This document shows positions 33,513 to 48,618 of a stretch of 60,696 nt of DNA, in pieces. The stretch is from Bacteroidota bacterium (lineage in GTDB: Bacteria > Bacteroidota > Ignavibacteria > Ignavibacteriales > Ignavibacteriaceae): assembly GCA_023475265.1 (NCBI GenBank), contig JAMCWE010000026.1, positions 1 through 60,696 on the forward strand, in the 5' to 3' direction. Position numbers and translations under genes: made by a program. The notes beneath the pieces were generated by a model. The model had not been told where the DNA came from and did no database searches. It saw only the letters and a list, made by a program, of their open reading frames with translations. Position 1 is the first letter of the stretch; every line of letters begins with the position of its first letter.

Positions 33513-34703
33513 TTAATCTTTTATTGTAACACTCACACCGTTTTTAATTTTATCTGTAACATTATCAATCACCTGGTCGCCGTTAGTTAGCCCGGATTTT
33601 ATTTCTATGTATGAATCAAATTGCCTGCCTGTAGTTATGGGAATTTCAACAGCTTTATCGTTCTTAATCAAAAAAACTAATTGTTTGCCGTTTCTATTTA
33701 CAATCGAAGTGTTCGGAACAACTAAAGCCGGTTGCTGATCGTTAGTTGCCGGCTTTGAACCTCTAGATAAGAATATTACTTTTGCGCTCATTTCAGGAAG
33801 TACCCTGTTGTCATAATTTTTAAATCCAACTTTAACCATCACAGTAGCTTTTGTTCTGTCAGCGGTAGGAACAATCTTAGCAACAAAACCTGGATAGCTA
33901 TGAGTTGGATAAGCATCAAGAATTATTTGGCATTCCAGGTTAGGAATAATTTTTTCGATATTTGATTCGGATACGTCTGCTTCAACTTGAAGCGAGCTCA
34001 TATCTGCAATTGTAACCACAGCAGCTCTCGAATTTGCGCCTGCTGCAAGTGGGGCTACAATTTCACCAACATCAGCATTTTTTGTAAGTACAGTTCCATT
34101 AAATGGTGCGCGGATGATAGTGTTTTCCAAAGCAACTTCACCGGATTGAACTTGTGCTTTTGCAACATCAATCGATGCAAGCACTCGTTTGTAATTCGCT
34201 TCCGCCGCATCCAATTCTGCTTGAGTAGCAGAACCGGTTTTGATCAACGCTTTCGTTCGAGCAAAAGTATTTTTAACATCGTTCAAATTTGCCTCTTGAA
34301 GTTCAAGATTTGCTTTAGCTTCGGCTAATTGAGCTTTTACGTCGCTGTCTTCAAGCCTGGCGATAATTTGATTTTTCTTTACCTTGTCGCCTTCAACAAC
34401 ACCTAGATAAATTAATCTTCCTGTTCCTTTGGAAGCGACGGCGGCTTTCCGCTGTGCAACAACATAACCGCTTGCTGTAAAAATAGCATTTGATTGAGAT
34501 GGTGTTTGAAGAACTGCTGTAACAAGCTTTACTTCTATTACAGATCTAAATACAGAGCTTAAGAAACTATAGCCTAAAAATATTATTATCAATATTACAA
34601 TTAATGTAATGATGTAAATTAAATTTTTTCTTGTTCCCGGAGTCGAATGTTTATTTGAACGATCAATTCTTAATGATGAAAGGTCGGTATTTTTTGTTTC
34701 CAT
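33513..34703 (-). CDS. MacA-type periplasmic adaptor (HlyD/RND membrane-fusion family)
   Basis: 396 residues from ATG 34703; an alternative TTG at 34754 would add an improbable 17-residue extension. One membrane helix (about 28-50) anchors it. It has a lipoyl/barrel-sandwich half near 75-110, a coiled-coil hairpin (about 110-190, KANLELQEANLNDVKNTFAR) and the second lipoyl half ENTIIRAPFNGTVLTKNADV, then beta-barrel domains. This is the standard adaptor that joins an inner-membrane pump to an outer-membrane channel. First gene of the four-gene exporter unit (75 bases before the ATPase). No TolC-like gene lies beside it; the TolC-like gene at 47.3 kb or another could serve. Substrate unknown. 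Confidence 0.9.
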   Translation of the reverse strand: METKNTDLSSLRIDRSNKHSTPGTRKNLIYIITLIVILIIIFLGYSFLSSVFRSVIEVKLVTAVLQTPSQSNAIFTASGYVVAQRKAAVASKGTGRLIYLGVVEGDKVKKNQIIARLEDSDVKAQLAEAKANLELQEANLNDVKNTFARTKALIKTGSATQAELDAAEANYKRVLASIDVAKAQVQSGEVALENTIIRAPFNGTVLTKNADVGEIVAPLAAGANSRAAVVTIADMSSLQVEADVSESNIEKIIPNLECQIILDAYPTHSYPGFVAKIVPTADRTKATVMVKVGFKNYDNRVLPEMSAKVIFLSRGSKPATNDQQPALVVPNTSIVNRNGKQLVFLIKNDKAVEIPITTGRQFDSYIEIKSGLTNGDQVIDNVTDKIKNGVSVTIKD

Positions 34704-34754
34704 AATTTTAAAATAGTTTTTGAAGGTAAATAACTTGGCAATGACCTTCTGCAA

Positions 34755-35910: not shown

Positions 35911-38900
35911 ATGAAAAGTCTTAAGATTTTAATTTGTTCATTCCTCATTTTATACTGTACTCAAGCGCAAACTGTACAAACTAATTTGCCTATGACAAAT
36001 GGGCAAGTCCGTTCAGTTTTTGTAGATGATGAAGCAAATAAAATTTATATAGGCGGTGATTTTACATTTGTTGGACAATATTCAGGTGACGGTGCCTCTT
36101 TCGATATCTTAACAGGTTCGTCCGATTCTTCATTCCCGATTGTTACAGGAGGTAGAATCAGAAACTTTACTTCTGACGGCTTGGGAGGATGGTTTATCTG
36201 CGGCGATTTTACAACTGTTAATGGGACAGCTCGTAACAAAATTGCACATATAAAAAACGATAACACTTTAGATAACGCTTGGTGTCCTGAAGGTGCAAAT
36301 GGTACTGTTTATTCTACAATTATTTTAGGATCCACGCTTTATGTCGTCGGATTGTTTACAAGTATTGGTGGTGCAGTAAGAAATGGAATAGCTGCATTAA
36401 ATACTGCTGATGGAAATGTAATTCCATCATGGAATCCCAACGCCGGATCAGGCGGTGTGTTTGCTATTGCAGTATTTGGCTCCACATTATTTGTCGGCGG
36501 TTCATTCTCAAACATTGGCGGGCAGTCTAGATATGGTTTGGCTGCACTTGATGCAGCTACCGGCTTAGCAACATCATGGAATCCAAATGCCGGCTCTTCA
36601 GGAGTGTATGCTCTTACAGTGTCGAATTCAACACTTTACGTTGGAGGAGCTTTTACAACTATTGCGGGATTTTCGAGAAACCATGCAGCCGCTTTTGATT
36701 TAACTTCCGGAGAATTATTAGGCTGGAATCCCGATGTTACAGGAACAGGATCTGTTAATATTTATTCTATTGTAAAATCCGGCTCAACTATTTTTCTTGG
36801 CGGAAATTTTTCATCAGTTGGAGGATTAACTAGAAATAATATTGTCTCTGTCGATACCGTTTCAGGACTTGTATCCGGATGGAATCCAAATGCGAATAAT
36901 CTAATTAATACTATTCTAGTTTACGGTTCAACTATTTATATAGGTGGAAGCTTTACCACTCTTAATGGCGGAACATTTGCAAGAAATTATCTCGCGGCTA
37001 TTGATGCTTCAACAGGAGTGCCGACAAGCTGGGATCCGGGAGTAAATTTAAGTGTGTATGCTTTAGCCAGTTGGGGTTCACGAATTTTTGCCGGGGGAGA
37101 CTTTACTTATATCAATGGCAGTATTAGAAATTATATTGCTTCTATTGATGCGGCAACCGGGCATTTAACAACTTGGAATCCAAATACAAACTCTCCTGTT
37201 TATACAATTACAGCATCTGGTTCAACAGTTTACATTGGAGGAAGTTTTAGTTCTCTAAATGGTTCAACAGCCAGAAATCATATTGCAGCAATTGATGCAT
37301 CAAGCGGCTTGGTAACAAGCTGGAATCCAAACGCAAACGATGTTGTAAATAAAATAGCTGTTTCAGGGTCAATAGTTTATGCCGGAGGAAATTTTACAAC
37401 TCTAAACGGCTCAGCAGTCAGAAATCATATTGCGGCTATTGATATTTCAAGCGGCTTAGTTGCAAGCTGGAATCCAAATGCTAACGATTTAGTTTCGGCA
37501 ATTGAAGTTTCCGGTAATGTAATTTACGTCGGTGGAAATTTTACTTCGTTCAATGGATTCACAACAAGAAACCATCTTGCTGCTATTGATGCAGCAAGCG
37601 GGCTTGTTACAAGCTGGGATCCGAATGCTAATAATAACGTTTCGACGCTTTCAAAACTTGGTAATACAATTTATGCTGGAGGATATTTTACAACTATTAA
37701 TGGATTTACAACAAGAAATTTTATTGCAGCTATAGATTCAGCAACCGGAAGCGTAACAAGGTGGAATCCAAATGCCAATAATGCAGTTAATAGTCTTGTC
37801 ATTTCAGGTTCAACAATTTGTATCGGCGGTTTATTCTCAACAATAGGATCATCACTCAGAAATAATATTGCTGCAATAGATATCTCAACAGGAGTTGTAA
37901 CTTCATGGGATGCTAACGCAAGCAGCAATATTAATTCACTTTCACTTTCGATTGCGCGCCAAAAAATTTATGCGGGCGGTTTATTTACTATGATGATGGG
38001 ATCGGCTTGCTTTTATTTAGCCGAGATTACTAATCCGGGTTTTCCGAATGAAGTTACGCTTTTACTTCCTGCTAATCTTGTAACTGAAGTTTCTACTTTG
38101 CCTGCTTTAACGTGGAGTAAATCAAATGCGACTTCTTATAATTTACAAGTATCCACTGATCTAAATTTCTCCACGACAGTTATAAATGTTACCCAATCTT
38201 CTACAACATATTTGATAGCTGATCCGCTAAATTATAACACTCAATATTATTGGAGAGTTAATGCTTCTAATTCACTTGGGACATGCAGTTGGTCGGTTGT
38301 TAAAAGTTTTAGAACTACTTCGAATAGCAGTATTCAAACTCCTTCATTAAATGGCGCCAATGCACAAGTACGTACGGTTTTTGTTGATGATGCATCGGAT
38401 AAAATTTATATCGGCGGCGAATTTACTTATGTAGGTCATTATTCGGGAACCGGAACTGCTTTTGATATGACTAATGGCTATGCGGATGCTTCATTACCAA
38501 AAGTAAGCGGAACGATTAGAGCAGTTACACCTGATGGTATTGGCGGATGGTATATAGGTGGAGATTTTACTACTATTAATGGAGTTTCCCGTTACAGAAT
38601 AGCTCATTTTAATTCTGATAAGAGTTTCGATATTTTGTGGTGCCAATCCGGAGCTAATGGAACTGTTTACTCAATTGCAGTTTTTGGAGCTACAGTTTAT
38701 GTAGGAGGGAATTTCACTTCTATTGGAGGCGTTGCTAGAAATTATATTGCAGCTCTTAATGCTGTTGATGGAAGTGTAATTTCAACATGGAATCCAAATT
38801 CAAACAATTGTATTTACACTTTAGCAGTTTCCGGTTCAATAGTATATGCCGGCGGAAATTTTAAAGCCAATACTCCTGGTGAATTAACAATTGGAAATGC

Positions 38901-41334
38901 ATCGATAGATTATCTAGCAGCACTTGATGCAGAATCCGGGAATGCTGCTGCCTGGAATCCGGGAGTAAATAATTGTGTTTATGCCGTTTATGTTTCAGGT
39001 GCTAACGTTTATATTGGTGGAATTTTTACCTATGCCGGAGGGCAACCAAGAAATCGTATTGCAGCTATTGATGCAGCTTCAGGCAATGTAACCGGTTGGG
39101 ATCCTAATGCAAACGGGCAAGTCTCAACAATAATTTCATTAGGAACTTCTGTTTTTATTGGTGGAAGCTTTACTCAAATAAACGGCTCTACAACAAGAAA
39201 TTATTTAGCTGGAATTGATGTTTCAACCGGACTTGTTACCAGTTGGAATCCAAATGCTAATAATTCTGTTTCTGCACTTTCAGTTTCCGGTTCTACAATT
39301 TATGCTGCCGGTATTTTTACAACACTAGACGGAGGAAGCACTAAAAGAAATTATATCGCCGCTATAGATGCTTCCACAGGAACAGCTACTAGCTGGAATC
39401 CGGGTGCTAATCTAAATGTTTGTACAATTGCAATCTCAGGCCCGGTAATTTATGCCGGCGGAAATTTTACTTATGTTAATGGTGATTCCAGGAATTACAT
39501 AGCGGCATTAGATGCAAGAACAGGCCAATTAACAAATTGGAATCCTTCAGCAAATGCTTATGTAAGTTCCATCCTTTTATCAGGTTCAAATGTAATTGCA
39601 GGAGGAAATTTCACTTCAATAAACGGAACAACTAGGAATCATATTGCCGCAATTGATACTGCCTCTGGTAATTTAACAAGCTGGAATCCTAATGCAAATG
39701 GAGTTGTAAATACTCTTGCATCGTCCGGCTCAATAATTTATGCAGGCGGAAGCTTTACTTATTTCAATGGATCAACTTTAAGAAATAATCTTGCCGCTAT
39801 TGATGCTGCTACCGGAAGCGTAACATCCTGGAATCCCAATGCAAACAGTACGGTATCTATTCTAAAATTATCCGGCTCAATAATTTATGCGGGCGGAAGT
39901 TTTACAAACATAAATGGCCTGGTTAACAGAAATCGTATTGCCGCAATTGATGTTTTGACCGGTGAAGTAACTTCCTGGAATCCTAATGTAAATGGTTCTG
40001 TTTATGCTATCGCTGTTTCGGAATCAACAATTTATATCGGTGGAAATTTTACTATGCTTGGAAGTGCCGTAAGAAACCGCATCGGGGCTGTTGATGTTTT
40101 AACGGGAGCTGTAACTAGCTGGGATCCTAATTTTAATAATACTGTTAACTCTATTCTTGCCTATGGATCGAACATTTATGCCGGCGGCAATTTTACATCT
40201 ATCGGCGGTTCAACTGTAAGAAATTATTTTGCTGCGATAGATATAGTAACCGGATTACCAACATCGTGGAATTTGAATGCGAATAACTTAGTTAATTCAA
40301 TTTCATTATCTTCTAAACAACAGAAAATTTATTTAGGCGGTTCATTTACAAGTATTTTGAATTTGTCTTATAATTATCTGGCAGGAATTGCAATTCCGGG
40401 AATCCCATTACCTGTTTCGCTGATATCTCCGGCAAATTCTTCAAGTAATGTTTCGACCACTCCCAGTTTTTCATGGAATAGTTCTGTCGGGGCAGCTTCT
40501 TATAATCTTCAGGTCACAACGGATATAACTTTTTCAACTATTATTTTAAATATCAATCAAACTACTGCATCATATATTTTAACGGTTCCATTAGAAAATT
40601 CCACACAATATTATTGGAGAGTAAATGCTTCCAATTCTAATGGAACAAGCGATTGGACTGAATGGAGCTTTACCACAAAACCAATTAATGCTAATCTAAA
40701 AGTATTTCTTCAAGGCCCGTTTAATGCTGGTTCGATGTCAACTGATTTAAATATCAAAGGCGTCATTCCTTTAACTTCCGATAGCGCTTATCCAGCATCA
40801 GCTTATAACTATTCTGTTCGAACTGTGGCTAACATTCCTAATGCAAATATTGTCGATTGGATATTAATTGAATTAAGATCTGGAACAGCTGATTCGACAA
40901 AGATTTCAACACAAGCCGGGTTTGTAAAAAATGATGGAAACGTTGTAGATGTTGATGGCACTAGTCCTTTGAGTTTTAGTAATGTATTATCCGGCAGTTA
41001 TTATATAGTAGTAAGACATCGAAATCACCTTGCCATAATGAGCTCAGCGCCGGTTGTTTTAAATTCTACAAGCAGCTTATATGATTTTACGACAGCTCAA
41101 ACTCAAGCATATGGGAATAATCCTATGGAAACTTTATCCGGCGGTGTTTTTGGAATGATTGCAGGCAATAGCGATGGTAACAAAGTAATCTCTTCAAGCG
41201 ACTACAATGCTGTCGGTTTAAATTTATTCAGAATAGGTTACATTCCTTGTGATCACAATTTAAGCGGAGTTGTGTCTACCTCTGATTATAATTTTGTCGG
41301 CTTAAATCTCTTCAAAACTACAAAGGTGCCTTAA
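35911..41334 (+). CDS. Giant secreted repeat protein with two large duplicated blocks and a dockerin-like end
   Basis: 1807 residues; signal peptide ends TQAQ; GAGG precedes the ATG. Two blocks of about 790 residues (about 28-810 and 815-1600) start the same way (VRSVFVDD versus VRTVFVDD), and each contains twelve units of ~50 residues with the pattern YxGGxFT..NG..RNxIAAIDxxTGxVTSWNPNANxxV. The units resemble delta-60/beta-propeller-type repeats. Each block ends with an fn3-like domain (YNLQVSTD-YYWRVNASN). After a beta domain, residues 1753-1807 hold two EF-hand-like loops, NSDGNKVISSSD and DHNLSGVVSTSD, each followed by YN-x-VGLNLF, which look like a dockerin pair. There is no T9SS YPNPFNP tail. 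Probably an adhesin or binding protein shown on the surface through the neighbour's cohesin-like domain (inference). Ligand unknown. Confidence 0.85.
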   Translation: MKSLKILICSFLILYCTQAQTVQTNLPMTNGQVRSVFVDDEANKIYIGGDFTFVGQYSGDGASFDILTGSSDSSFPIVTGGRIRNFTSDGLGGWFICGDFTTVNGTARNKIAHIKNDNTLDNAWCPEGANGTVYSTIILGSTLYVVGLFTSIGGAVRNGIAALNTADGNVIPSWNPNAGSGGVFAIAVFGSTLFVGGSFSNIGGQSRYGLAALDAATGLATSWNPNAGSSGVYALTVSNSTLYVGGAFTTIAGFSRNHAAAFDLTSGELLGWNPDVTGTGSVNIYSIVKSGSTIFLGGNFSSVGGLTRNNIVSVDTVSGLVSGWNPNANNLINTILVYGSTIYIGGSFTTLNGGTFARNYLAAIDASTGVPTSWDPGVNLSVYALASWGSRIFAGGDFTYINGSIRNYIASIDAATGHLTTWNPNTNSPVYTITASGSTVYIGGSFSSLNGSTARNHIAAIDASSGLVTSWNPNANDVVNKIAVSGSIVYAGGNFTTLNGSAVRNHIAAIDISSGLVASWNPNANDLVSAIEVSGNVIYVGGNFTSFNGFTTRNHLAAIDAASGLVTSWDPNANNNVSTLSKLGNTIYAGGYFTTINGFTTRNFIAAIDSATGSVTRWNPNANNAVNSLVISGSTICIGGLFSTIGSSLRNNIAAIDISTGVVTSWDANASSNINSLSLSIARQKIYAGGLFTMMMGSACFYLAEITNPGFPNEVTLLLPANLVTEVSTLPALTWSKSNATSYNLQVSTDLNFSTTVINVTQSSTTYLIADPLNYNTQYYWRVNASNSLGTCSWSVVKSFRTTSNSSIQTPSLNGANAQVRTVFVDDASDKIYIGGEFTYVGHYSGTGTAFDMTNGYADASLPKVSGTIRAVTPDGIGGWYIGGDFTTINGVSRYRIAHFNSDKSFDILWCQSGANGTVYSIAVFGATVYVGGNFTSIGGVARNYIAALNAVDGSVISTWNPNSNNCIYTLAVSGSIVYAGGNFKANTPGELTIGNASIDYLAALDAESGNAAAWNPGVNNCVYAVYVSGANVYIGGIFTYAGGQPRNRIAAIDAASGNVTGWDPNANGQVSTIISLGTSVFIGGSFTQINGSTTRNYLAGIDVSTGLVTSWNPNANNSVSALSVSGSTIYAAGIFTTLDGGSTKRNYIAAIDASTGTATSWNPGANLNVCTIAISGPVIYAGGNFTYVNGDSRNYIAALDARTGQLTNWNPSANAYVSSILLSGSNVIAGGNFTSINGTTRNHIAAIDTASGNLTSWNPNANGVVNTLASSGSIIYAGGSFTYFNGSTLRNNLAAIDAATGSVTSWNPNANSTVSILKLSGSIIYAGGSFTNINGLVNRNRIAAIDVLTGEVTSWNPNVNGSVYAIAVSESTIYIGGNFTMLGSAVRNRIGAVDVLTGAVTSWDPNFNNTVNSILAYGSNIYAGGNFTSIGGSTVRNYFAAIDIVTGLPTSWNLNANNLVNSISLSSKQQKIYLGGSFTSILNLSYNYLAGIAIPGIPLPVSLISPANSSSNVSTTPSFSWNSSVGAASYNLQVTTDITFSTIILNINQTTASYILTVPLENSTQYYWRVNASNSNGTSDWTEWSFTTKPINANLKVFLQGPFNAGSMSTDLNIKGVIPLTSDSAYPASAYNYSVRTVANIPNANIVDWILIELRSGTADSTKISTQAGFVKNDGNVVDVDGTSPLSFSNVLSGSYYIVVRHRNHLAIMSSAPVVLNSTSSLYDFTTAQTQAYGNNPMETLSGGVFGMIAGNSDGNKVISSSDYNAVGLNLFRIGYIPCDHNLSGVVSTSDYNFVGLNLFKTTKVP

Positions 41335-41416
41335 TGAAAAATAATCCAAAATTAATTTTCGAAATATCAACATTCAATTATAATATTTATTTAATTATTA
41401 AAGGAGGAATAGAGTC

Positions 41417-42529
41417 ATGAAATTATTGAAACAACTAATTATATTTTCGTTATTAATGATAAGTATCCCAACTGCAAATGCTCAGTATCAAATGATTTTG
41501 CAGAATGATACTGAAATAAATGGCAACGAATATGAGTTTGATGTCTTTATTGTTAGTACATCAGGAAGTTTCAATTTAACTTCCTATCAGGTTTGTTTTA
41601 CTTTTAACAATGCTATAATAAACGGCGGAAGTTTATCTTTCAATTATATTGATGGAAGTACAGCTTTATCTTCATGTCTTCCTTTATCAACTCAAATAAT
41701 TGATGACAGTGGAATTCTAAATTTAATATGCGGATCGAACTTTGGAAGCCAAACTGTTACAACAACTCAATTGAAAATTGGAAGATTCCGAATTTCAAAT
41801 AGTGCAGCATTTACTCATACTACCGCTGATATTGTTTGGGATTTTTCCGGAGACTTAGTGACAGAAGTGAATATTAGCAATATAAATGTTACGTCACCGT
41901 CTAATCATATTAACTTACTCGGAAATAATCCGCTTCCGGTTGAGCTGGTTGAATTTATCGGAAATTCAATTGGTTCTGATGTTGAACTTAAATGGAAGAC
42001 GGCAACTGAAATTAATAATTTCGGTTTTGATGTAGAGAGATCAGTTCAAGCTGATCAGTCATTTGCAGGAAATAAAAAATCAAAACCAGAAAGCTGGACT
42101 AAGATTGGCTTTGTTATGGGAAGTGGTAATAGTAATTCAGTTAAAGAATATTCGTTTAAAGATCAAAATCCGGAAGGCGGAAATAAATTTAATTACAGAC
42201 TTAAGCAGATTGATATCAACGGTAATTACAAATATTCTTCTATTGCAACCGTAGAAGTTTTACCTAAGGAATTTTCTTTATTGCAGAATTATCCTAATCC
42301 GTTTAATCCAACTACTTTTATCAGGTACGAATTACCAAGAAGTGAATTTGTTTCGCTAAAAATTTATGATGTGCTTGGCAAAGAAGTAAAGATATTAATT
42401 AACGAAAACCAAAACGCCGGAAGATATGAGGTAATGCTGAATGCAGGAAATTTGGCTAGTGGAATTTATGTTTATCAGATTGCAGCCGGAAAATTTACCA
42501 GTGTAAAGAAGATGTTGTTGATTAAATAA
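41417..42529 (+). CDS. Secreted protein with cohesin-like sandwich and T9SS sorting domain
   Basis: 370 residues, with an ideal ribosome site (AAAGGAGG). Signal peptide ends NANAQ (about residue 22). Residues 23-170 (NEYEFDVFIVSTSGSFNLTS, then FNNAIINGGSLSF and GRFRISNSAAF) form a beta-sandwich with the strand order and hydrophobic pattern of cohesin-type domains; this assignment is by pattern only. A linker LPVELVEF leads to an fn3-like segment (about 178-265), and the last ~85 residues are a T9SS C-terminal domain (LLQNYPNPFNPTTFIRYELP to KKMLLIK). It starts 82 bases after the dockerin-like giant protein on the same strand, so the two may form a display pair. T9SS would secrete this one to the surface. 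Confidence 0.82.
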   Translation: MKLLKQLIIFSLLMISIPTANAQYQMILQNDTEINGNEYEFDVFIVSTSGSFNLTSYQVCFTFNNAIINGGSLSFNYIDGSTALSSCLPLSTQIIDDSGILNLICGSNFGSQTVTTTQLKIGRFRISNSAAFTHTTADIVWDFSGDLVTEVNISNINVTSPSNHINLLGNNPLPVELVEFIGNSIGSDVELKWKTATEINNFGFDVERSVQADQSFAGNKKSKPESWTKIGFVMGSGNSNSVKEYSFKDQNPEGGNKFNYRLKQIDINGNYKYSSIATVEVLPKEFSLLQNYPNPFNPTTFIRYELPRSEFVSLKIYDVLGKEVKILINENQNAGRYEVMLNAGNLASGIYVYQIAAGKFTSVKKMLLIK

Positions 42530-42855: not shown

Positions 42856-45800
42856 TCAGATCTCTGGTGCAGTTTCTTTACCTTGTAATCCTTTTGCTTC
42901 AAGCTCGTCTAATTTTTCTTTGCCGTATGCAAACCTGGTAATAGTAACGAACATTACAGGCACAATAAAAATAGCTAACAATGTTGCTGCAAGCATTCCG
43001 CCTAATACCGTCCAGCCAATTGTAGACCTAGCCTGAGCACCTGCACCGGAAGCGAAAGCTAGTGGTGAAACTCCAAAAATAAATGCCATCGAAGTCATAA
43101 GAATTGGTCGAAGACGGAGTTTAACTGCTGCTATTGTCCCTTCAATAAGTGGTACACCTCTGTCAACTCGTTCCTTTGCAAACTCCACGATGAGGATTGC
43201 ATTTTTAGCTGCTAATCCAATCAATGCAATAAGACCGATTTGTGCATAAATATTATCACTTAAGCTTGGCAGAAATGTTAACGCTATTATTGCACCGAAC
43301 GCCGCAATCGGAACGGCAAACAGTATTGAAAACGGAACCGACCAGCTTTCGTACAAGGCAGACAAAAACAGGAAAACAAATAATATTGACAAAGCAAAAA
43401 TTGCAATTGAACCGTTGCCCGCATTTATTTCTTCTCTGCTTAACCCGGAAAATTCATAACCATAGCCGGAAGGTAATACTTGTGCGGCAACATCTTTCAA
43501 TGCTTCAATTGCTTGGCCGCTGCTGTAGCCTTCTGCAGCATTGCCGTCGATTTCTGCCGAACGGAATAAATTATAGTGAGAAATCATTGGCGCGCTTTCA
43601 GTAACCTTGTAGCTTATCAAATTGCTTAATGGAATCATGCTGCCCGATAAATTTTTAACAAAGTATTTTCCCAATGCTTGAATATCCGCACGGTAATCAG
43701 TATCGGCTTGTTCAACTACATGAAAGTTTCTTCCATAAATTGTGAAGTCGTTTACGTACCTGCTTCCAAGATATGTTTGAATTGTATTATACACATCTGC
43801 AATTGAAACACCAAGCTTCTCACATTTTTCTCTATCAACATTTACTTGATAACCCGGAGTGCTTGCAGTGAAGAATGAAAAGACGTGGCTTAACTCCGGC
43901 CGTTTGTTTGCCGCTATTAAAAAGCTGTGCACAACATTTTCAAACTGTTTAATATTATCTGTACTTTCCTGCTGCTCAAGTTCGAATGTAAATCCGCCAG
44001 TTTGACCTAGACCTGGTATAGCCGGCGGCGGAATTACAACTATATTCGCGCCTTCAATCGATGCGAACTTTCTTCTTAGTGTTGCAATAATAGCGTTTAG
44101 CTGAAGCGCTTTGCTTGTTCTTTCATCCCAAGGCGTTAATTGAGTAAAGATTGTTCCGCTGTTTGACTTTGTTGCAAATGTCACTACGTTCAATCCGCTT
44201 ATAGCTGCAAAATGACCAATACCGGGAGTCTGTTTTAGGATATTCATCATTTTGTCTAACACTTCAACAGTCCTTGTTGTTGAAGATGCTTCAGGCAATT
44301 CAAAAGTTATATACAATCTTCCCACATCTTCGGTTGGAATAAAACCAGTTGGTTTAGCATTGAACAATAATGCCGTACCTGCATAAATAAAAATTAAAAC
44401 GATGATGAAGTAAGGTGCAATCTTTATACATTTTCTTACACCCTTTGAATATTTTTCTGTTGTTTTCTTAAACCATTCATTGAATCGATAAAATAATTTA
44501 TTGATTCCGTGTGAACCTTTATCTAAGTGCGATGGTTTAAGAAATAATGAACATAATGCCGGAGTTAGAGAAAGCGCAACGAATGCAGAAATCAATACTG
44601 AAATGGCAATAGTAATAGCGAATTGTTGGTAAAGCTTTCCAACTATTCCCGGTATAAAGCCGACCGGAATAAATACAGATGCCAGTATTAGAGCAATTGC
44701 AACAACCGGTCCGGAAATATCGTTCATTGCTCTCTTAGTAGCTTCTTTAGGCGAAAGCTTTTCGTTATCAATATAATGCTGAACAGCTTCTACTACTATT
44801 ATTGCGTCATCAACTACAATTCCAATCGCAAGGACAAATCCAAACATTGTTAGAGTATTAATTGTAAATCCAAGAGGGATGAAAAATGCAAATGTACCTA
44901 TGATAGAAACTGGTATTGCAAGCACCGGTATAAGTGTAGCCCGCCAATTTTGGAGAAAAAGAAAAACAACAAGTACAACTAATCCTAAAGCTTCCAGCAA
45001 TGTTACTACAACATCATCAATAGAAACTTTAACCACAGAAACTGCTTCAAAAGGAACTGAATAGTCTACATCTTTAGGAAGTGATTTTTTTAAGTTTTCC
45101 ATTTCTTTGTATATACCGTTTGCAACTTCCAATGCATTGCTTCCGGGAGCTTGAAAGACTAATAGAAATGAAGCTCTTCTTCCATCAACAAAAGAATCGG
45201 TTGAATAACTAAATCTCCCAAGCTGAACTCTTGCTACATCTTTAAGGTGTACTTCGGAGCCATCTTGAGGATTTACACGAACTACTATTTCGCCGAATTG
45301 CTTTTCAGTGCTTAATCTGCTGTTCGTAAAAACGGTGTACTCAAATGCCTGCCCTATATTTTGCGGCGGCGCTCCAATTGTACCTGCGGCTATCTGAAGG
45401 TTCTGTTCTGAAAGCGCATTAGTAACATCATTAACTGTAAGGCCAAGTTGTGCTAATTTGAAAGGGTCTAACCAGATGCGCATGCTGAAATCATCAGCTC
45501 GTGTAAAAATATCCCCCACACCGTTTACCCGAAGAAGATCATTCTTAATAAAAATATTTGTGTAATTATCTAGGAAAGAAATGTTGTGGGTTTTGCCGGG
45601 TGAATAAATTGCAACAACCATTAATATACTTGAATTTCTTTTTCTGGTTGTTATTCCAAGACGCTTTACCTCATCAGGAAGCTGTGGCGAAGCTATACCG
45701 ACTCTGTTCTGTATATCCAATGCTGCAATATCCGGATCTGTGCCGACATTTAATGTAACATTTATTGAAGACCTTCCATCGCTTGTACTTGTACTAGTCA

Positions 45801-46035
45801 TATATGCTATCCCTGGCGTTCCGTTCACTTGGGATTCGATCGGTGTAGTAACTGTTTGCTCAACAGTTGTTGCATCAGCCCCGTTAAAAATTCCGCTTAT
45901 TTGAACTGTCGGAGGAGTAATGTCCGGATACTGGCTTATAGGTAAATTGAAAATAGCCAGCACACCAATAAGTACAATTACAATTGAAATTACAATTGCA
46001 GTTACAGGTCTTTTAATAAAAGTATTTGCAATCAT
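42856..46035 (-). CDS. RND multidrug efflux pump (HAE1/AcrB type)
   Basis: 1059 residues, an inner-membrane trimer with 12 helices and two large periplasmic loops. The N-terminus (IANTFIKRPVTAIVISIVIV, then LPISQYPDITPP) and GFVLAIGIVVDDAIIVVEAV, which carries the two Asp residues of the proton relay in helix 4, are hallmarks of the hydrophobe/amphiphile efflux family 1. GAGAQARSTIGWTVLGGM appears near the C-terminus. It exports drugs, detergents or lipids using the proton gradient. Third gene of a tolC-like/adaptor/pump unit, 19 bases after the adaptor. Confidence 0.97.
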   Translation of the reverse strand: MIANTFIKRPVTAIVISIVIVLIGVLAIFNLPISQYPDITPPTVQISGIFNGADATTVEQTVTTPIESQVNGTPGIAYMTSTSTSDGRSSINVTLNVGTDPDIAALDIQNRVGIASPQLPDEVKRLGITTRKRNSSILMVVAIYSPGKTHNISFLDNYTNIFIKNDLLRVNGVGDIFTRADDFSMRIWLDPFKLAQLGLTVNDVTNALSEQNLQIAAGTIGAPPQNIGQAFEYTVFTNSRLSTEKQFGEIVVRVNPQDGSEVHLKDVARVQLGRFSYSTDSFVDGRRASFLLVFQAPGSNALEVANGIYKEMENLKKSLPKDVDYSVPFEAVSVVKVSIDDVVVTLLEALGLVVLVVFLFLQNWRATLIPVLAIPVSIIGTFAFFIPLGFTINTLTMFGFVLAIGIVVDDAIIVVEAVQHYIDNEKLSPKEATKRAMNDISGPVVAIALILASVFIPVGFIPGIVGKLYQQFAITIAISVLISAFVALSLTPALCSLFLKPSHLDKGSHGINKLFYRFNEWFKKTTEKYSKGVRKCIKIAPYFIIVLIFIYAGTALLFNAKPTGFIPTEDVGRLYITFELPEASSTTRTVEVLDKMMNILKQTPGIGHFAAISGLNVVTFATKSNSGTIFTQLTPWDERTSKALQLNAIIATLRRKFASIEGANIVVIPPPAIPGLGQTGGFTFELEQQESTDNIKQFENVVHSFLIAANKRPELSHVFSFFTASTPGYQVNVDREKCEKLGVSIADVYNTIQTYLGSRYVNDFTIYGRNFHVVEQADTDYRADIQALGKYFVKNLSGSMIPLSNLISYKVTESAPMISHYNLFRSAEIDGNAAEGYSSGQAIEALKDVAAQVLPSGYGYEFSGLSREEINAGNGSIAIFALSILFVFLFLSALYESWSVPFSILFAVPIAAFGAIIALTFLPSLSDNIYAQIGLIALIGLAAKNAILIVEFAKERVDRGVPLIEGTIAAVKLRLRPILMTSMAFIFGVSPLAFASGAGAQARSTIGWTVLGGMLAATLLAIFIVPVMFVTITRFAYGKEKLDELEAKGLQGKETAPEI

Positions 46036-46054
46036 TTAATATCCTGTTTGAAAA

Positions 46055-47203
46055 TTATTTCATCGCAGTCTTGGGAGTTGACTTTGATCCGGCAGGTATA
46101 ATAACAACCGGTGAATTATCTTTTAATTTCTGCACGCCTTCAGTTACAATCAGATCACCAACATTCAAACCATCTTTCACAATTACATTACCGAAAATAT
46201 TCATACCAATATTGATCCTTTGCTGAGAAACTTTTCCATTCTTTATAACATAGACAAAATATTCCCCCATCTGTTCTATAACTGCTTTAAATGGGATTAT
46301 AATACTATTTGCCTGAGTTGTATTAAGTACTCGCACATTACAAGTCAATCCTGGCTTTAATAAATTATTCGGATTTGGGAATACCAATCTTACTCTTAAT
46401 GTACCGGTTTGCGGATCAACGGCACGATCTAGTAAAATTAGTTTACCGTAGTATGGATAAATAGAAAGGTCAGGCAATTGTAATGTGAATGTAGAATCTT
46501 TATCATTTGTTTTTTTATTTTGAAGTTTATTGAAGCGTGCAATCTGGCTTTCATCGATTTCAAAATCCACAGCCATTGGGTTGTTAGAAGAAATTGTGTT
46601 CATTAAAGTTTGCCCGGCAGTTACAGCCGAGCCTAATTTCACTTGAGAAATTCCAATTGTTCCATTGAAGGGTGCATAAATAGTTGAATTCCGAAAATTA
46701 GTTTGAACAAAATTCACATTCGCTTGAGCAGCTGCTACCTGGTTCTTTGCAGCATCGAGATCAGCCTGTGCATGTTGAAGAACTTGTTTTGCAATTGCAT
46801 CGTTCTTAGCAAGCTCATTGTACCTATCATTATCTTGTTGAGCTTTTAAAAGATTTGCCTTAGCAGCATTAAGATTTGCAACTGCCTGCTCATATGCAGC
46901 CTTGTATTGCTGCTGATCAATTGAATAAAGCTTAGATCCTTTGGAGATTTGTTGACCATCATTAAAATAAATATCAGTTATATAACCTGATACTTCCGGT
47001 CTTATTTCAACTTGATTTAATGCAGTAACCGTCGCAGGATATTCATCATAATAAAATGCCTTCTCCGGTTTTATCTGATAGGCAACAACCGGGGTTGGTG
47101 GAAATTTTTGTTGTGCGCCTTTATTGTTACTGCAAGATATAATCGAAATTGAAATTCCAATAGCCGCTGTTATCAAACCAATTAATTTCATATACTTTTT
47201 CAT
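46055..47203 (-). CDS. RND efflux adaptor lipoprotein (AcrA type)
   Basis: 382 residues. The signal peptide ends in lipobox IISC near residue 24, so it is lipid-anchored in the periplasm. The barrel-sandwich halves flank a coiled-coil hairpin (about 90-160: AAYEQAVANLNAAKANLLKA) and NFRNSTIYAPFNGTIGISQV marks the second lipoyl half. It bridges the downstream AcrB-type pump to the TolC-like channel encoded upstream. The gap to the pump gene is 19 bases, which fits one transcript. Confidence 0.95.
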   Translation of the reverse strand: MKKYMKLIGLITAAIGISISIISCSNNKGAQQKFPPTPVVAYQIKPEKAFYYDEYPATVTALNQVEIRPEVSGYITDIYFNDGQQISKGSKLYSIDQQQYKAAYEQAVANLNAAKANLLKAQQDNDRYNELAKNDAIAKQVLQHAQADLDAAKNQVAAAQANVNFVQTNFRNSTIYAPFNGTIGISQVKLGSAVTAGQTLMNTISSNNPMAVDFEIDESQIARFNKLQNKKTNDKDSTFTLQLPDLSIYPYYGKLILLDRAVDPQTGTLRVRLVFPNPNNLLKPGLTCNVRVLNTTQANSIIIPFKAVIEQMGEYFVYVIKNGKVSQQRINIGMNIFGNVIVKDGLNVGDLIVTEGVQKLKDNSPVVIIPAGSKSTPKTAMK

Positions 47204-47295
47204 TTCTTTAATTTCTTTGTTGTTATTCTATCTAAAAATTAATAACCAAATTATTACAAATTTTTATTTTAGGTGCTTTGTTTATAATTGAATAA

Positions 47296-48618
47296 TTAAA
47301 ATTTAATTTCACCTAAAGCTTTCTGTACATCAATCTTGCTGCTTAGAACTCTATAAAGTGCATTTATATAATTTACTTCAGTGGTTCTTAAATCTGTTTC
47401 TGCTGTTATAACATCCAGGTAAGTTCTAATTCCGGATTTATATTGAAGTTGTATCGTATTATAAACTTCCTTTGCAAGCTGTTGATTATCCTTTTGTGCA
47501 TAATAATTATCTAAGCTGCTTTTATAATTTGATAAAGCCTGAATGTATTCAGTATTTATTGAATTAGCTAAGGATGCAATATCATAGTCCATGCGTTTCA
47601 ATTCTAATTTTGCTTGATCAATTTCTTGAATACGTTTGCCGCCCTGAAAAATAGGGAGTGATAGCTGCAAGCCGATATAAGAATTAGGATAACCCTGATT
47701 ATACAGCTTTGGCAGGTTGTTGTTCATAAAGTTAAGATTATATTCTCCGAAAGCGCTTAAAGTCGGAATAAAACTCCATTCGTAATAGCTAAGGTTAGCA
47801 TGTTGAAGCCGCTTTTGTGTTTCAAGCAATTGAAACTCTAGTCTATTTTGGATATTAATAATTTGAGTGGTGTCAACAAAAATATCATTTTCCATTTGCG
47901 ATCTGTCAAAATCTAATTTTAATTTATCTTCTAATGGATAGCCCATTAATTCTTTTAAATATGCAAAGCTCGTCTTTAAATTTTCTACATCTAATTTTTG
48001 TTCTGCTTCAGCATTATTGAGAGCTACCGTTGCACGCATATAATCGGTTTTATCAACAACACCGCTTTTATACTGATTGTAGGTATCTTTTTTACTTTGT
48101 CTCAAACGTGCAACATCTTCATTAATTAAATCAATTTGGTCTTGAGCAAGCAGTACACCATAATAAGCTTTGCTGACATTGACGACAATATTAATTTTAT
48201 CTATAACAGTTAATTGTTTTGATTGTTCGCGAACGTCATGTGCAGTACTGGCAGCAAGAAGGACGTCTCTACTAAAAAGTGTTTGGGTCAATGAGAACTG
48301 TCCGCTTGAAGTATTTATTAAACCAAACTTAATTGCATTACCTTGAAATATAGATGTAGGTAATTCATATGCATGTTGAAGGCTAAAATTAAAATTCAGC
48401 TGCGGGAACCAATCGGAAAGCTTTGTTCTTATTTTTGCACTTGCAATCTCCTCATCGATCGATGATTGCTGTATTGACGGCTGGTGTATTAATGCATAAT
48501 TAATGCAGTTCTTCAAAGTCCCTTGCTGCAGAGGAGAACCGGTTTGATTATTTAGCTGGGGAAAAATAAATCCTCTTGCTAGAATGAATATTGTTAACGT
48601 AAGAAGTTTTTTTTGCAT
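47296..48618 (-). CDS. TolC-type outer-membrane efflux protein
   Basis: 440 residues with a signal peptide (about 1-20). Two related halves of long helices and beta hairpins: LKNCINYALIHQPSIQQSSI at the start, QFSLTQTLFSRDVLLAA in the first half, and GLQLSLPIFQGGKRIQEIDQA in the second are the repeated OEP signature. Trimers form the outer-membrane channel. First gene of the efflux operon, 92 bases before the adaptor. An independent 434-base region precedes it, shared with the divergent sensor kinase, so the promoter lies there. Confidence 0.95.
   Translation of the reverse strand: MQKKLLTLTIFILARGFIFPQLNNQTGSPLQQGTLKNCINYALIHQPSIQQSSIDEEIASAKIRTKLSDWFPQLNFNFSLQHAYELPTSIFQGNAIKFGLINTSSGQFSLTQTLFSRDVLLAASTAHDVREQSKQLTVIDKINIVVNVSKAYYGVLLAQDQIDLINEDVARLRQSKKDTYNQYKSGVVDKTDYMRATVALNNAEAEQKLDVENLKTSFAYLKELMGYPLEDKLKLDFDRSQMENDIFVDTTQIINIQNRLEFQLLETQKRLQHANLSYYEWSFIPTLSAFGEYNLNFMNNNLPKLYNQGYPNSYIGLQLSLPIFQGGKRIQEIDQAKLELKRMDYDIASLANSINTEYIQALSNYKSSLDNYYAQKDNQQLAKEVYNTIQLQYKSGIRTYLDVITAETDLRTTEVNYINALYRVLSSKIDVQKALGEIKF

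Follow-up and report, generated by a model that had tools for sequence, protein, structure and literature searches.

How is a giant secreted protein that bears no type IX secretion system (T9SS) tail placed at the cell surface? This question is raised by the window, that is, the whole 60,696-nucleotide stretch of contig JAMCWE010000026.1 (assembly GCA_023475265.1, family Ignavibacteriaceae), in which the gene for an 1807-residue protein (35911–41334, plus strand) is followed, 82 bases on, by the gene for a 370-residue protein (41417–42529, plus strand) with a T9SS tail. A reading of the letters alone, hereafter called the sequence-only reading, had described both open reading frames as we find them, and had proposed that the T9SS-sorted partner could hold the giant protein at the surface. 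The predicted folds, the recurrence of the gene pair in relatives and the covariation of the two domains all support this proposal. We consider it likely that the T9SS takes the smaller protein, the “carrier”, to the surface, and that the cohesin of the carrier holds the larger, dockerin-bearing protein, the “cargo”, there.

Architecture of the gene pair

From its signal peptide (assigned by eye), the cargo runs through two blocks of DUF5122-type propeller repeats and Ig/fn3-like domains to an X-dockerin module at the C-terminus. The last 209 residues of the cargo form this module as one unit, in which about 147 residues of the X module (40705–41145, plus strand; no Pfam family above cut-off) precede a 62-residue dockerin-like segment that contains two calcium loops and ends in TTKVP (41146–41331, plus strand). 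The loop-pattern scan located the two calcium-loop motifs, NSDGNKVISSSD (41167–41202, plus strand) and DHNLSGVVSTSD (41251–41286, plus strand). The first continues into YNAVGLNLF and the second into YNFVGLNLF, and the duplicated loops with YN-x-VGLNLF noticed from the letters alone are thus present at the C-terminus. No enzyme domain was found in the cargo by the domain scans.

The carrier begins with a signal peptide (by eye), which is followed by a cohesin-like beta-sandwich (41483–41932, plus strand; assigned from the AlphaFold2 model and VIA structure matches). A linker domain comes next, and the protein closes with a sorting domain of T9SS type A (42290–42517, plus strand; TIGR04183/PF18962). 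The tail had been ascribed to the carrier and not to the cargo, and the profile searches agree: TIGR04183 (Por_Secre_tail) matches the carrier with 44 bits against a cut-off of 23 in the NCBIfam scan, while neither a type A nor a type B tail was matched in the cargo by Pfam or NCBIfam. Within the 82-base intergenic gap (41335–41416, plus strand), no terminator-like site was reported by a promoter and terminator scan that performed overall at chance level. Whole-protein Pfam and NCBIfam searches, PHROGs and single-sequence PDB searches matched no cohesin or dockerin in the pair, and Pfam likewise gave no match for the window dockerin segment alone or the window sandwich alone.

The C-terminal segment as a probable distant dockerin

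Is the two-loop segment a dockerin? By scanning public genome contigs for the pattern, we confirmed at least 552 relatives, the best 80 of which were kept as 79 loci; by their record labels, these loci belong mostly to Ignavibacteria, Bacteroidota and Calditrichota. From the 79 loci, the source genome of the window and 40 fetched regions, we collected the module proteins that score above 130 against the profile, 137 distinct ones in all, and divergent module proteins (L116–L124 and others) fall mostly outside this set. With a loop pattern written for this test, two loops lie within the last 80 residues in 98 of the 137 proteins, including that of the window; when the whole set was shuffled 200 times, the corresponding number averaged 0.155 and never exceeded 2. 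In the window segment, the two calcium-loop motifs stand in tandem, in the dockerin layout. The dockerin family profile retrieved 27 PDB matches, which are mostly dockerins or dockerin-bearing cellulosomal proteins, and the best of them is a dockerin (2vn5_B, 5.4e-4). Moreover, Pfam Dockerin_1 matches 18 of 54 module members at E≤0.1, and reaches or exceeds the Pfam cut-off in three relatives (L015, L019 and L020). These sequence comparisons suggest that the loop segment is a dockerin, though a distant one.

The X part of relative L009 (residues 11–120) was modelled by AlphaFold2 with a predicted local distance difference test score (pLDDT) of about 77–93, and the listed structure matches hardly extend over it; hence, we assign no fold to it. 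The module, to which no Pfam family extends as a whole, occurs at E≤1e-20 in 34 of 116 genomes of the order, including five of the nine genomes of the genus. We also observed it in L054, L022, L041 and L057, which are labelled as Thermoplasmatota archaeon or Deltaproteobacteria, and wrong binning is suspected there.

Could the X-dockerin itself be an undescribed outer-membrane sorting signal, with the neighbouring carrier as another substrate of the same process? The module lies at or near the C-terminus, and 107 of the 137 proteins end in a hydrophobic residue, a proline and zero to two further residues (VP plus zero to two residues in 80 of these), as a signal might. In addition, none of 54 modules contains a T9SS tail (NCBIfam, E≤0.1), and no other sorting tag was found in them. 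However, some relatives, mostly Calditrichota by their labels, carry 17–60 residues after the module; in L017, L020, L030, L033, L041 and L070, there are 21–59 such residues, often rich in polar ones, instead of the VP end. Furthermore, a general signal is not expected to switch its subtype with the sandwich of its neighbour, as the dockerin does (see below). This explanation strikes us as very improbable.

Fold of the carrier sandwich

Next, we consider the domain that would bind the dockerin. The partner domain of L009, which is 69% identical to one of the carrier domains on contig C48 of the source genome, was predicted with a pLDDT mostly of 89–98. In the VIA search with this model, all 50 listed entries are cohesins (6kgf_C: Z 14.8, 2.4 Å over 139 residues), and the first 25 rows of the Foldseek search are all cohesin entries. 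By its model, the L009 partner domain is a cohesin.

The AlphaFold2 model of the window sandwich has a pLDDT of 80.9 and a predicted template modelling score (pTM) of 0.79. In VIA, its first 24 rows are cohesins, with Z-scores of 10.1–9.0 (1aoh_A: 3.0 Å over 125 residues), and CBM3 entries follow directly below from Z 8.9, about 1 Z unit beneath the cohesins. In Foldseek, a chitinase and CBM3s stand on top, and the first cohesin is found at rank 12. These matches are what one would see if the sandwich were a CBM3-like sugar binder and the pair worked on one substrate without mutual contact. Against this explanation stand the cohesin entries that fill the whole VIA list of the L009 domain, with its close kinship to a C48 carrier domain, and the covariation of the sandwich with the dockerin described below; we hold it to be very improbable. 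The cohesin-like pattern guessed by the sequence-only reading is accordingly borne out as a predicted cohesin in the relative L009, while for the window domain the model supports the word “cohesin-like”, with CBM3 close behind, and it is mainly the position of the domain in the pair that suggests the name cohesin.

Pfam Cohesin has no match in the window domain; when 45 carrier domains were compared with it, four matched at E≤1, and the best E-value was 4.9e-4. Against the PDB, the profile of the 45 carrier domains retrieved mostly antibody chains and one cohesin (10ux_A, 0.0083), and the profile of window-type domains retrieved one antibody chain.

Recurrence of the gene pair

We detected the module three times in the source genome, once in the window and twice on contig C48. 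All three are followed by the gene for a secreted, T9SS-tailed sandwich protein, with gaps of 82 bases in the window and 62 and 35 bases on C48. Across the loci, in which the gene calls are simple picks of open reading frames, we classified the next gene for the 123 module proteins with at least 1.3 kb of downstream sequence (14 of the 137 have less). The next gene is on the same strand and encodes a T9SS-tailed protein for 54 of these 123, as compared to 15 of 322 other genes in the same loci, and it encodes another module protein on the same strand for a further 30. TIGR04183 matches 47 of 48 carriers at E≤0.001, and a hidden Markov model built from the carriers found a T9SS tail in none of the 137 module proteins. 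In genome G068, with 22 module matches among those listed, module genes line up in tandem runs (L105–L107), one of which is followed by a carrier.

The association also holds in the reverse direction, examined over the 116 genomes with the 32 of 112 listed module positions that lie on contigs of interest. A same-strand module gene lies within 1 kb upstream of 15 of 25 matches to the C48-type cohesin (E≤1e-8) and nine of 35 matches to the window-type cohesin (E≤1e-5), where the chance of such a gene, estimated from rounded totals, is near 1e-4 for each type. The module is present in 27 of the 32 genomes that have either cohesin type, as against seven of the 84 genomes without.

On contig C48, the two cargo proteins L005:6771–8714 and L005:10636–12627 share a near-identical N-terminal part of about 390 residues, beta-helix-like by eye, followed by different X-dockerin modules, and each has its own carrier behind it. 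The same cargo seems, from these sequences, to be paired with two dockerins.

Such pairing might still be a matter of gene order. The sequence-only reading had offered as its alternative that the calcium loops are part of a C-terminal module widespread in T9SS organisms, for which there is no cohesin partner, and that the T9SS-tailed neighbour is only co-transcribed with it. The next gene is some other same-strand gene in 27 of the 123 cases and an opposite-strand gene in 12, as this alternative would allow, and no complex was predicted for the L009 chain. On the other hand, the pairing exceeds that of the control genes, and the modelled L009 partner is a cohesin.

Covariation of dockerin and sandwich

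For 49 pairs, we compared the distances of the dockerin segment, of the X module, and of the sandwich domain and tail of the carrier; the set contains L046 despite its shorter flank, and no pairs with partners outside 240–620 residues. With the X module held constant, the dockerin and sandwich distances agree with a partial Mantel correlation of 0.425, which none of 2000 permutations reached, although the loci are related and the Mantel and Fisher figures are thus not exact probabilities. In contrast, the X module agrees weakly with the sandwich when the dockerin is held constant (0.16; 52 of 2000), and the dockerin does not agree with the carrier tail when the X module is held constant (−0.06; 382 of 500). 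The raw correlations with the tail are 0.38 for the cohesin and 0.26 for the X module, and the latter remains at 0.26 with the dockerin held constant (4 of 500), which indicates that shared lineage does leave a signal. The dockerin–sandwich value is 0.561 (0 of 1000) in 44 pairs, a set obtained by removing L017, L042, L052, L072 and L080 once the clusters were known, and 0.459 (0 of 1000) in the 22 pairs that remain when near-duplicates by X module are also removed. As plain counts, the most similar dockerin comes from a pair of the matching sandwich cluster in 39 of 44 cases, and the most similar X module in 12 of 44.

Individual genomes illustrate this behavior. The two pairs of the BIN5 genome are close in dockerin (0.07) and sandwich (0.20) and lie apart in the X module (0.49). 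In the SJ300 genome, the X distance is 0.42, yet the dockerins (0.94) and sandwiches (1.03) are wholly different.

Covariation of this kind is expected of matched binding partners and not of mere co-transcription. Because the sandwich of the partner is tracked by the dockerin segment, and not by the X module of the same protein or by the tail, co-transcription without contact is disfavoured. We consider that alternative improbable, even with five of the 49 partners outside any shared cohesin cluster. The co-occurrence in relatives, which had been suggested as a check on the proposed pair, is found in both respects: the pairing recurs, and the dockerin and cohesin subtypes covary.

Several observations, besides the Foldseek ranking of the window domain, weigh against the display of the cargo on a carrier cohesin. 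First, for 39 of the 123 module genes, the next gene is not another module gene and does not encode a T9SS tail, and 26 of the 35 window-type cohesin matches have no module gene within 1 kb upstream; it is possible that the latter proteins have partners elsewhere or other roles. Second, the window dockerin is nearest to that of a pair in another cohesin cluster, and the five failures of the nearest-dockerin prediction include this pair and both pairs of L034, where two similar dockerins (distance 0.32) stand beside unlike sandwiches (1.01). Third, a profile comparison did not join the window-type profile (probability 5.5%) to the C48-type cluster, which counts as proven cohesin, and searches of the whole genome with Pfam Dockerin_1 and Cohesin gave no match above cut-off, only weaker ones. 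Finally, L009 modelled as a single chain, from the module through to the partner, yielded no complex (pTM 0.44), and the dockerin was not folded in this model (pLDDT about 32–54).

Proposed mechanism of display

Export of the carrier: The source genome encodes SprA, by which we judge the T9SS translocon to be present (SprA_N over cut-off, 1.4e-47), and a GspD search for the type II route gave one partial match below cut-off. Its tail suggests that the 370-residue carrier is exported across the outer membrane like other T9SS substrates of type A, and it would then present one cohesin.

Capture of the cargo: Given its signal peptide, the 1807-residue propeller protein would enter the periplasm by Sec. 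It has no recognised outer-membrane sorting tag, and would be held through its C-terminal X-dockerin on the cohesin of the carrier, probably with calcium in the two dockerin loops. The couple may form before export, so that both proteins are carried out together, or after export.

In a more specific version of the first order of events, the dockerin protein, which lacks a T9SS C-terminal domain, would bind its cohesin carrier while still periplasmic, and the T9SS translocon would draw it out as the passenger of that carrier. One tag would then serve two polypeptides, and distinct dockerin–cohesin codes would separate the several pairs of a cell. We find this version rather unlikely as it stands, and put it forward tentatively.

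Is the pair a cellulosome? A several-cohesin scaffoldin with polysaccharide-degrading enzymes is not what the window encodes; the carrier has one sandwich domain and the cargo is a propeller protein. The window pair is not a cellulosome. The description “cellulosome-like” in the sequence-only reading should be used with this reservation, since the window carrier has a single sandwich and its cargo no enzyme domain. Among 29 other module proteins with T9SS-tailed neighbours, we found lipases and one polysaccharide deacetylase, and no glycoside hydrolase, both within 25 of the 30 Pfam families.

Possible layered and divergent assemblies, and neighbouring genes

Some module proteins carry a cohesin of their own. 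Pfam Cohesin matches five of 29 sampled module proteins at E≤0.001 (best 4.8e-13). Four such proteins were identified: an N-terminal Cohesin match is combined with a C-terminal X-dockerin above the cut-off in L031:2869–4092 and L034:886–2016, and below it in L034:3145–4269 and L056:5494–6651. We presume that these proteins of L031, L034 and L056 resemble adaptor scaffoldins.

A divergent arrangement is seen in L116 (1–9001), where three module-like proteins in a row are followed by a protein of at least 1192 residues; this protein has a window-type sandwich at its N-terminus, and a T9SS tail begins where the fetched stretch ends. The same branch was observed in L118, L119, L123 and L137–L140, as rows of proteins with a weak module match followed by a window-type-sandwich protein of more than 1000 residues.

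In the window, the pair is flanked on the opposite strand by RND-type genes: a periplasmic adaptor gene upstream (33513–34754, minus strand), and a permease, an adaptor and a TolC-like gene downstream (42856–48618, minus strand).

Comparison with known systems

Clostridial cellulosomes are anchored in the Gram-positive type of cell surface. In their type II cohesin–X-dockerin anchoring (PDB 2b59, 5g5d and 4u3s), the X module and two-loop dockerin are likewise C-terminal, and the cohesin sits on a surface-bound partner, as we propose for the carrier. Here, in contrast, the cohesin protein has a T9SS tail, there is one cohesin per carrier in the pairs examined, and the two genes are adjacent. 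Non-cellulosomal cohesins (PDB 2xdh of Archaeoglobus and 2vo8 of Clostridium perfringens) resemble the present case in having the cohesin fold outside cellulosomes, but involve no T9SS.

In the T9SS as described in the consulted part of PMC10994853, type A and type B substrates are distinguished; the window carrier likewise has a type A C-terminal domain, and the dockerin protein has none. In that account, the role of carrier falls to PorV and other proteins of the outer membrane, to which the C-terminal domain is bound, whereas the carrier proposed here is itself a substrate.

For relatives, the genome literature describes parts of this kind as absent. For Melioribacter roseus, the portion of PMC3534657 at hand describes no dockerin or scaffoldin domains in the cellulase genes and infers no cellulosome. 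On the other hand, Pfam dockerins are mentioned for a few Bacteroidota single-cell genomes in the excerpt of PMC10266427, and cohesin–dockerin assembly has been proposed in Cloacimonadota (see below). The main text of a cellulosome review, as far as available (PMC12484212), does not contain “type IX” or “Ignavibacter”. In the literature searched, a body of text with most subscription papers outside it, we came across no account of a two-gene form whose subtypes match. If the display proposed here is true, then a family of matched dockerin–cohesin pairs linked to T9SS tails would account for the display of many secreted proteins that have no tail, would turn the passage of the tail-less partners across the outer membrane into a question, and would provide distinct natural pairs for protein assembly in Gram-negative bacteria.

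The nearest published idea that we found appears to be the scaffoldin of the Cloacimonadota “Ca. Stygibacter”, for which a cohesin–dockerin assembly in a Gram-negative lineage has been proposed, here cited from a part of PMC8542988. That system differs in its single 3,755-residue scaffoldin, with tandem cohesins and CBMs that serve glycoside hydrolase and peptidase enzymes, and gene pairs with matched subtypes are not mentioned in the same part of that paper. It is alike in combining dockerin proteins with a cohesin protein that ends in a C-terminal surface-attachment domain. Set beside these systems, the matched pairs in related bacteria point to a little-described way of placing proteins on the outer surface.

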